This document shows positions 3,958 to 6,006 of a stretch of 64,000 nucleotides of DNA, piece after piece. The notes under the pieces were generated by a model that worked only from the letters and a program-made list of their open reading frames with translations, was not told the origin of the DNA and ran no database searches. The stretch is from assembly GCA_026390815.1 (NCBI GenBank), contig JAPLFH010000024.1:124001-188000 (forward strand). Direction: 5' to 3'. Made by a program: the position numbers and the translations under genes. The stretch comes from Ignavibacteriales bacterium. Its GTDB lineage: Bacteria; Bacteroidota; Ignavibacteria; Ignavibacteriales; SURF-24. How positions within the stretch are numbered: position 1 is the stretch's first letter; the number at the start of each line of letters is the position of its first letter.

Positions 3958-4099
3958 AGATGATATTGGAAAAATATAAGGTGATATATCTGATTACCTT
4001 TCTGCTTAAGCTATTCATATAATCCATAGCAAATCTTTAAGTCCATTTCATGTAGATGTTTTGTGTTATTTTCAAAAATATATTTTTTAAATAAATTTT

Positions 4100-4126
4100 T
4101 TGTTTCAAAAAAAAGTTATATCTTTC
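4100..4126 (+). promoter_or_regulatory. Candidate Bacteroidota-type promoter for the 43-aa gene
   Basis: TTG at 4100-4102 and TATCTTTC at 4119-4126 resemble the -33 TTG / -7 TAnnTTTG pattern known for Bacteroidetes, with 16 bases between. Transcription would begin about 25 bases before the first leader hairpin. Such short AT-rich matches occur by chance, so this is a weak call. Confidence 0.3.
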
Positions 4127-4156
4127 TTTCAGTTTAAATCTATATAAAATAAAAAA

Positions 4157-4305
4157 CCCGAAGTAATAGCATACTTCGGGTAAAACAATAAATCCCAAAA
4201 ATCTAACAGTCGGCTTGATGTTGGGACTCTTAATAACACAAGGTTCAACTTAAACCTTCCAAGAGAAAAAGTCAAGCCATTTGTATCATTCCTTTAATAA
4301 GGAGG
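4157..4305 (+). promoter_or_regulatory. Structured 5' leader (candidate cis-regulatory RNA)
   Basis: Several complementary segments lie in 150 bases. CCCGAAGTA/TACTTCGGG forms a 9-bp hairpin (4157-4180). TCCCAA (4193-4198) can pair TTGGGA (4221-4226). GGCTTGA (4212-4218), inside that loop, can pair TCAAGCC (4272-4278), which would make a pseudoknot. AAGGTT/AACCTT (4240-4258) is a hairpin between them. TCCTT/AAGGA (4290-4303) covers the Shine-Dalgarno GGAGG (4301-4305). This is the arrangement of a translational riboswitch or other leader RNA, but it matches no class I recognise. The pairings are seen by eye; covariation is untested. On the opposite strand the first hairpin is followed by six T, so it could also act as a minus-strand terminator. 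Confidence 0.45.
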
Positions 4306-4311
4306 ACGCTA

Positions 4312-4443
4312 ATGTCTTCAAAAAAAGGAAAACCTGGATATATCAAAATATTCACCAAGAAAATAACTCTTCGTAATGGAAGAGTTATATATGCTGGAGA
4401 ATGTGGGCTTAAGGCCTTCTGTATCTGGGTTAAATCCAAATAA
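4312..4443 (+). CDS. 43-aa basic small protein of unknown function
   Basis: A 43-codon frame, MSSKKGKPGY to AFCIWVKSK, with a perfect AAGGAGG seven to eight bases before ATG and a strong terminator four bases after TAA. The protein is lysine-rich, has two cysteines, and reads as a compact beta-type segment (IKIFTKKITLRNGRVIYAGE). No signal peptide or membrane segment. The combination of candidate promoter, structured leader, ribosome site and terminator makes it a self-contained transcription unit, which argues strongly for a real gene. I do not recognise a family and propose no function; nucleic-acid binding is possible from charge alone. Confidence 0.7.
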   Translation: MSSKKGKPGYIKIFTKKITLRNGRVIYAGECGLKAFCIWVKSK

Positions 4444-4447
4444 TGAA

Positions 4448-4476
4448 AAAGCCGGTCTTTGGACCGGCTTTAATAT
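4448..4476 (+). terminator. Rho-independent terminator of the 43-aa gene
   Basis: AAAGCCGGTC pairs with GACCGGCTTT around a 4-base loop (TTTG), followed by TAATATTT. The A-rich 5' arm means it may also work for transcription from the right. Confidence 0.8.
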
Positions 4477-4854: not shown

Positions 4855-6006
4855 TTAGTCGAAATTCAATTTTATGTTTACAATTTCTGGTCGGTTTCCC
4901 AATCGTATTGGTGGTCCCCATCCGCCAAAACCGCTTGAAACATAAAAGTGCGTATTCCCTTTTTTCTTATAACCCCAGCTAACCTCATAAACCATTTCGG
5001 TAATATAGTTGAATGGCCAAAGCTGTCCGTGGTGTGTATGTCCGGATATTTGTAAATCCACTCCATTCTCAACTGCTTCATTCAATCCAAACGGTTGATG
5101 ATCCATCATAACAACTGGAAGGGTTTTGTCTACGCCCAACATAATTTCTTTTAATTCTTTCCTTTTCTTATGGGCAAATTGATTAATGCTTCTGTCTTCT
5201 CTTCCAACCAAATAAAAGCTGTTGTTAATCTTAACCGAAGTATCGCGCAGCATTTTTATTCCATGCTCACCAAGATATTTTACTGCGGCTTCAACTCCGC
5301 CAATGTATTCATGATTTCCGGTAATTGCATAAACTCCGTGTTGGGCTTTAATATTTCGCAATGTATCTCCAAGATCTTCCTTTATAACCGGCGCAAGATC
5401 TTCATCAATTATATCACCGGCAAGCAACACAATATCTGGCTTTAAGGAATTGATTGTATTTACAAGAAAACTCAGGCGCGATTTACCAATTATTGTCCCA
5501 AGATGAATATCAGAAGCAACAACAACGTTCCAGCTTGTTTGTGAATTAACTTTCTTTGGAATATTTATCTCCAGTGTTTTAATGCGGGGATTAAGAGCAT
5601 TTATCCTTCCGGCAATTAACGCCAAGAAAGAAATTGAAACAAGGATTATCGCTATAACCTGTTTTGTTTTTGCGTAATCTTTAAATATAAATTGAGGAAA
5701 AATTCCTGTTAGATAATTGATCAGTCGGAGGATATCTATCAGCAAAACACCAAGTAAAAGATAAACCATTATTGCAAGCCAGAATGATCCGATCCAAACA
5801 AAGACATCACTAAATGTAGAGAGCGCGAAATTTTCTATAACTCTTCCTGCAAGGTAAGAAAGCGCTAGAAACAAAAAGAGGATCAGGTAATAAGTCCTGA
5901 TTGGTGAGTCTTTTGGAATTGCCTGCCATCCGCGGATGAAGATGTAATAATTAACCGATCCATAAATGAGAAGCACAATAGAAAAAAAGATTATAAAGTT
6001 TTTCAT
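4855..6006 (-). CDS. Membrane-anchored calcineurin-like metallophosphoesterase
   Basis: A 383-aa protein with about four hydrophobic helices in the first ~140 residues, then a metallophosphoesterase domain of the YkuE/YpbG type. Metal-site motifs are all present: ASDIHLG, LLAGDIID, TGNHEY and SGHTHHGQLWP. Members hydrolyse phosphoester bonds with two metal ions; some relatives act on lipid A precursors, but the substrate here cannot be read. The catalytic domain probably faces one side of the inner membrane. Monocistronic by position, with a divergent gap before the lipoprotein at 6286. Fold assignment is firm, substrate is not. Confidence 0.9.
   Translation of the reverse strand: MKNFIIFFSIVLLIYGSVNYYIFIRGWQAIPKDSPIRTYYLILFLFLALSYLAGRVIENFALSTFSDVFVWIGSFWLAIMVYLLLGVLLIDILRLINYLTGIFPQFIFKDYAKTKQVIAIILVSISFLALIAGRINALNPRIKTLEINIPKKVNSQTSWNVVVASDIHLGTIIGKSRLSFLVNTINSLKPDIVLLAGDIIDEDLAPVIKEDLGDTLRNIKAQHGVYAITGNHEYIGGVEAAVKYLGEHGIKMLRDTSVKINNSFYLVGREDRSINQFAHKKRKELKEIMLGVDKTLPVVMMDHQPFGLNEAVENGVDLQISGHTHHGQLWPFNYITEMVYEVSWGYKKKGNTHFYVSSGFGGWGPPIRLGNRPEIVNIKLNFD

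Follow-up and report, generated by a model that had tools for sequence, protein, structure and literature searches.

The gene for ribosomal protein S15 (rpsO) is controlled by several distinct leaders, some of them pseudoknotted, and the RNA sequences of these leaders differ between phyla (PMC4137082). As for S15, the unit analysed here places a gene for a small basic protein behind a structured leader of its own, beside the ribosome-binding site, and the S15 leaders are its closest working parallel. Unlike in the S15 case, the protein encoded in the window (i.e., the whole 64,000-nucleotide stretch of DNA that was analysed) is neither S15 nor any known ribosomal protein, having no relative in Pfam, NCBIfam, or the PDB. 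It also differs in being mobile and phage-borne, and binding of the leader by the microprotein is a prediction.

A second comparison concerns the preQ1-II and preQ1-III riboswitches, which fold as HLout pseudoknots with a long-loop hairpin, near the Shine-Dalgarno (SD) sequence, and are fit for translational control (PMC11625349). An HLout pseudoknot beside the SD is present in the window unit as well, a likeness that is restricted to layout: unlike the preQ1 riboswitches, the unit gives no covariance-model match, has no pocket sequence conserved across the family, and is not followed by a queuosine gene. Type III toxin-antitoxin systems (ToxIN, CptIN) resemble the family in being carried by mobile elements and phages and in encoding a pseudoknot RNA immediately ahead of a protein gene. 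The window unit differs from them in that tandem repeats are absent, RNA and gene are not separated by a terminator, and the protein has 43 residues and is not a ToxN-type endoribonuclease (PMC5086642). Tandem Repeats Finder (TRF) detects no repeats in the leader, and only an AT-rich 13-mer at 4076–4101, outside it. Assignment to type III was rejected on these grounds, together with the lack of a rightward terminator at 4183–4312 and of any match in PADLOC, Pfam, or NCBIfam.

For modules of an Xre regulator and a COG2856 protein (M78, ImmA/IrrE), control over a further, unknown component has been predicted (PMC2701414). Here the likeness is one of position, since 9 of 34 loci have the family gene immediately behind an Xre and M78 pair. 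No upstream regulator was detected for the window copy or for about half of the family, which sets these apart, and other members follow DUF5343, HARE-HTH, or unnamed genes.

Small genes with a structured leader are already known as a kind of element. The cis-acting pseudoknot leaders form a new family, joined to a new microprotein family; these members, their mobility, and the pairing with regulator modules are absent from the libraries searched. Annotation systematically overlooks microproteins of about 40 residues that have structured leaders.

Layout and folding of the unit

The first-pass annotation had described a self-contained unit with a 5' hairpin, pseudoknot, inner hairpin, SD stem, reading frame, and 3' hairpin, and all of these parts were found where it had placed them:

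4156–4181, plus strand: 5' hairpin of 10 bp, ACCCGAAGTA/TACTTCGGGT; a minus-strand terminator site, with 0/100 shuffles as good
4193–4226, plus strand: pseudoknot stem S1, TCCCAA (4193–4198) with TTGGGA (4221–4226); pseudoknot script and family comparison
4212–4278, plus strand: pseudoknot stem S2, GGCTTGA (4212–4218) with TCAAGCC (4272–4278), and an extra T·G pair 4219/4271
4227–4265, plus strand: long-loop hairpin of the pseudoknot, CTCTT (4227–4231) with AAGAG (4261–4265), inner stem 4240–4245/4253–4258; folding
4289–4304, plus strand: SD-covering stem, TTCCTT (4289–4294) with AAGGAG (4299–4304), SD AAGGAGG at 4299–4305; folding
4312–4443, plus strand: gene for a 43-residue basic protein, net charge +10, predicted three-stranded beta meander; homologues, dN/dS, and AlphaFold2
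4448–4471, plus strand: 3' hairpin of 10 bp, probable intrinsic terminator; terminator scan and shuffles

The loop of S1 contains the first strand of S2, which is the arrangement of an H-type pseudoknot. One copy of the unit is present in the 4.5 Mb assembly. In ordinary nested folding with the first hairpin included, none of 200 shuffles folds as well as the whole leader (z −4.3); without that hairpin z is only −1.6, in a method that is blind to the pseudoknot. The pseudoknot was therefore scored with a script that adds up the stacking energies of both stems within set loop limits and compares the sum with dinucleotide shuffles. By this score the window leader exceeds all 150 shuffles (p 0.007) and each of the 45 leaders of other genes in the window, and its value is reached by 2 of 1315 segments across the 64 kb, placing the leader in the best 0.2%. 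The SD is almost fully paired, with an unpaired probability of 0.02.

The T-run of the first hairpin is on the minus-strand side, so that it scores as a leftward and not as a rightward terminator; it is probably a boundary element of the unit. The 3' hairpin also has its better T-tract on the minus-strand side. The hairpin itself is as first described, but calling it a strong terminator was generous, because the rightward T-tract is imperfect (TTTAATATTT). The terminator scan found no rightward terminator between leader and gene at 4183–4312, and a transcription attenuator was rejected for this reason. Of the 34 family loci, 18 have a significant hairpin (p<5%) ahead of the leader and 27 have one behind the gene, where 1.7 would be expected in either case.

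At two loci in different phyla, L010 (2801–2876) and L048 (1297–1371), tRNA-like genes are located directly upstream of the family leader and occupy the expected place of the 5' hairpin. They are called as tRNA-Ser, with anticodons ACT and GCT, are only 75–76 nt long, and are devoid of the long variable arm of serine tRNAs. In the window, TATCTTTC at 4119–4126 and a TTG upstream at 4100–4102 resemble, as read by eye only, a Bacteroidota-type promoter with short spacing.

The microprotein family and its surroundings

On the evidence of its homologues, the 43-codon frame is a member of an undescribed family of proteins of 35–67 residues. About 33 further members were found in Bacteroidota, deltaproteobacteria including Geobacter, Nitrospirota, Gemmatimonadota, a plasmid, and phages. 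A phylum-wide protein search returned two relatives (52 and 44% identity), and profile searches detected the family in 4 of 164 genomes of the order, in 6 of 396 of the phylum (three of them weak), and in 4/63, 10/244, and 10/246 genomes of three distant groups; a profile search of GTDB genomes added seven loci in deltaproteobacteria, Nitrospirota, Gemmatimonadota, and Geomonas. One member is encoded by a Microcystis phage and others by four more viral contigs, and a Geobacter plasmid carries a member that is absent from the gene table of its record.

The family consensus is RPGY-LIF--YIT--G-R-YA--YGLKAFPIWV. In five of six close pairs, dN is 0.03–0.24 versus a dS of 0.36–1.7 (e.g., 0.03 versus 0.54); in the sixth (L009/L010) dS is undefined by saturation, and third positions account for 20 of 27 differences. 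This pattern is that of a frame under purifying selection. A net positive charge (+4 to +13) is shared by 33 of the 34 proteins; the exception, L007, is acidic overall owing to its C-terminal tail. AlphaFold2 models the window protein as a three-stranded sheet (pLDDT 85). The protein family has no match in Pfam, NCBIfam, PADLOC, or the PDB, where the sequence search gave chance matches to antibody chains only and the fold search nothing significant. PHROGs offers no family either, with a single weak match (phrog_33859, E 0.001) obtained for two of the members, and three small uncharacterised siphovirus proteins are weak relatives in the viral fold library. At the RNA level, Rfam has no class at the window leader at the gathering score, or at the leaders of 13 family loci with E up to 1. 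The initial impression that neither RNA nor protein belongs to a described family is thus borne out in Rfam, Pfam, NCBIfam, PADLOC, and the PDB.

A regulator gene on the same strand precedes the family gene in 16 of 34 loci. M78 (ImmA/IrrE) accounts for nine of these, usually together with an Xre gene, DUF5343 for four, an unnamed family for two, and HARE-HTH for one. The neighbours of the window copy are a subtilase-type gene on one side and a metallophosphatase gene on the other; no regulator is adjacent, and no regulator-gene remnants were found around it. In another genome of the same family the unit is in an unrelated location, and synteny in four genomes of that family shows differing flanks, so that no clean empty site can be defined. 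Beyond what the first-pass annotation had noted, the unit is mobile, present in phages and prophages, and often placed behind Xre-M78 regulator genes. It occurs across phyla in phages, prophages, plasmids, and genomic islands, as a mobile cassette would.

Small proteins recur downstream of the unit, namely DUF2188, YjzC-like proteins, and a family with the motif NPPTGDGHRNG...RSQ, the last of which has no Pfam match (L208 3749–3967, L212 3695–3943, L199 3742–3909, L215 3728–3916, L206 4174–4347, L207 3845–4018, and L015 3235–3408). One viral contig that carries a family member (L017) has C4 antisense RNA and isrK RNA on the minus strand at 5238–5418, both typical of P4-like satellites and prophages.

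Conservation of the leader

In four Bacteroidota leaders, S1 is TCCCAA/TTGGGA (window), ACCCAA/TTGGGT, AACCAA/TTGGTT, and ACCAAC/GTTGGT, and S2 is GGCTTGA/TCAAGCC (window), GGCTTGCC/GGCAAGCC, GCTTGC/GCAAGC, and GGCTTGC/GCAAGCC. The sequences differ yet stay complementary, and pairs have thus changed on both sides. A Nitrospirota member has the same arrangement, with GCCCCA/TGGGGC as S1 and GAGTGACC/GGTCACTC as S2, and the long-loop hairpin recurs as CTCCCCTTT/AAAGGGGAG in L007 and as TCTTCTT/AAGAAGA in L008. Across phyla, the pseudoknot stems are kept at a near-fixed distance of about 30–45 nt from the start codon; L048 and the window, which represent different phyla, have stems of unrelated sequence at equal distances. 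The first-pass annotation had staked its proposal on the frame and the base pairing being conserved, and both are kept in related as well as distant genomes.

A MAFFT alignment of the leaders leaves the stems unaligned, and the stem statistics therefore derive from the script and not from a formal covariance model; the script does not always pick the stems that were read by eye. The pseudoknot score exceeds that of shuffles over the 34 leaders (Fisher p about 7e-15), and with the geometry fixed from the four Bacteroidota leaders, a test on the 30 held-out leaders gives p 3e-9, both values being optimistic because groups of leaders are related (L009/L010/L031 and L036/L039/L040/L046). Taken singly, 8 of the 30 held-out leaders are below p 0.05. 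The score of S1 given S2 is significant over all leaders (p 7e-7) and outside Bacteroidota (p 1.7e-4), with the same optimism from related groups. The architecture is absent or weak in L015, L037, L044, L050, L052, and L054.

Neither the loops nor other RNA outside the stems are conserved in sequence across the family, while GGCTTG/CAAGCC of S2 is nearly constant in the Bacteroidota members. A search of 164 genomes of the order for the leader pattern, S1 included, found it only ahead of this gene; the matches in viral contigs were all attributable to chance, and neither scan placed the leader ahead of metabolic or transport genes. Pairing of the SD varies from an unpaired probability of 0.02 in the window to a mean of 0.48 over 32 members, i.e., occlusion is not uniform, and a switch may consequently lack one uniform expression platform.

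Proposed mechanism and alternatives

The cassette would consist, in order, of a boundary hairpin, an H-type pseudoknot leader, the SD, the gene for a basic beta-sheet protein, and a terminator hairpin, with the SD positioned just after a stem or, in the window, inside one. Our favoured, still tentative, account is that the pseudoknot leader sets the translation of a mobile microprotein, most likely through binding of the basic protein to its own leader. The leader would limit translation of the microprotein, and excess protein would bind the pseudoknot of its own mRNA and lock the start site, i.e., autogenous control; the microprotein may in turn serve the regulator module as an output or accessory. 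This account is favoured because the stems are kept while the loops vary, which is also seen in leaders that a protein recognises, and because the protein is small and basic. A structured leader at the ribosome-binding site, kept together with a basic-protein gene, is also what is found in the family. Points against it are the non-uniform SD occlusion, the members in which the leader is absent or weak, the acidic L007, and the lack of an adjacent regulator in the window; in addition, the conserved CAAG of S2 could reflect sequence-specific recognition by something else. Of the two mechanisms offered by the first-pass annotation, a translational riboswitch or an autoregulated small protein, the layout suits both and the mechanism is a prediction, in which autoregulation fits better.

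A less likely, though plausible, alternative is that pseudoknot and hairpins are passive, serving to define the 5' end and to stabilise or insulate the mRNA in phage or operon transcripts with no regulatory ligand. It agrees with the hairpins at both ends being the commonest shared feature, with the non-uniform SD occlusion, and with the tRNA-like genes at two loci, which replace the 5' hairpin as a processing or boundary element would. A boundary element requires a hairpin only, however, whereas the pseudoknot stems keep complementary changes about 30–45 nt from the start codon.

We consider it improbable that the leader is a new class of metabolite or ion riboswitch acting at translation through an HLout-type pseudoknot like those of preQ1-II and preQ1-III. 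The layout with a long-loop hairpin close to the SD (PMC11625349) and the near-constant GGCTTG/CAAGCC in Bacteroidota would suit such a switch, but the family has no conserved loop sequence that a binding pocket would need, gives no Rfam match with E up to 1, and in the pattern scans is not found ahead of any metabolic or transport gene. Autogenous control fits better than a metabolite riboswitch because the loops are not conserved and the leader is found only before this gene.

Quite improbable, too, is a leader RNA that is itself the working partner, in a ribonucleoprotein or toxin-antitoxin-like pair acting with the neighbouring regulator module. A mobile, self-contained, phage-borne RNA with a small basic protein could be expected in such a pair, and Xre-M78 pairs have been predicted to form a mobile stress system that would act on a further, unknown component (PMC2701414). 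Against this stand the absence of tandem RNA repeats and of a terminator between RNA and gene, a protein far smaller than ToxN-type endoribonucleases, and the lack of conserved RNA sequence outside the stems. Finally, it is very improbable that the folds are generic structure of mobile-element intergenic DNA, with a conservation that is merely apparent and stems from few related leaders: the relatedness of the leader groups, which makes the combined p-values optimistic, and the 8 of 30 held-out leaders with p<0.05 singly are in line with it, but not the unrelated stem sequences at equal distances in different phyla (e.g., L048 and the window) or the 2 of 1315 window segments that reach the leader score.

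If its own protein reads the leader, as autogenous control predicts, the cassette would be a compact, mobile autoregulation unit, open to study outside the ribosome. A more far-reaching interpretation, which we regard as rather unlikely, is a new class of mobile protein-RNA cassette that has spread across phyla, in which an undescribed phage-borne microprotein and its dedicated pseudoknot RNA, placed behind varied regulators such as the Xre-M78 protease, DUF5343, and HARE-HTH genes, are the unknown further component of these modules. Were the unit to be that component of Xre-M78 modules, the proposal made for them (PMC2701414) would become directly testable. With about 30 independent leaders, the family also provides the material for a proper analysis of covariation.

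Two further features of individual leaders involve the SD. In the deltaproteobacterial leaders of L009, L010, and L031, about 105–10 nt before the start codon, the GGGCC of S1 has two possible partners, namely the other strand of S1 and the GGCCC closing the SD hairpin. The two folds are mutually exclusive, and this alternative pairing looks like a bistable switch as judged from the base complementarity. In L041, about 75–15 nt before the start codon, a TTTCGGAG element is present in two similar copies, both complementary to GCCTCTCCGG, and one of the copies is a possible decoy of the true SD.
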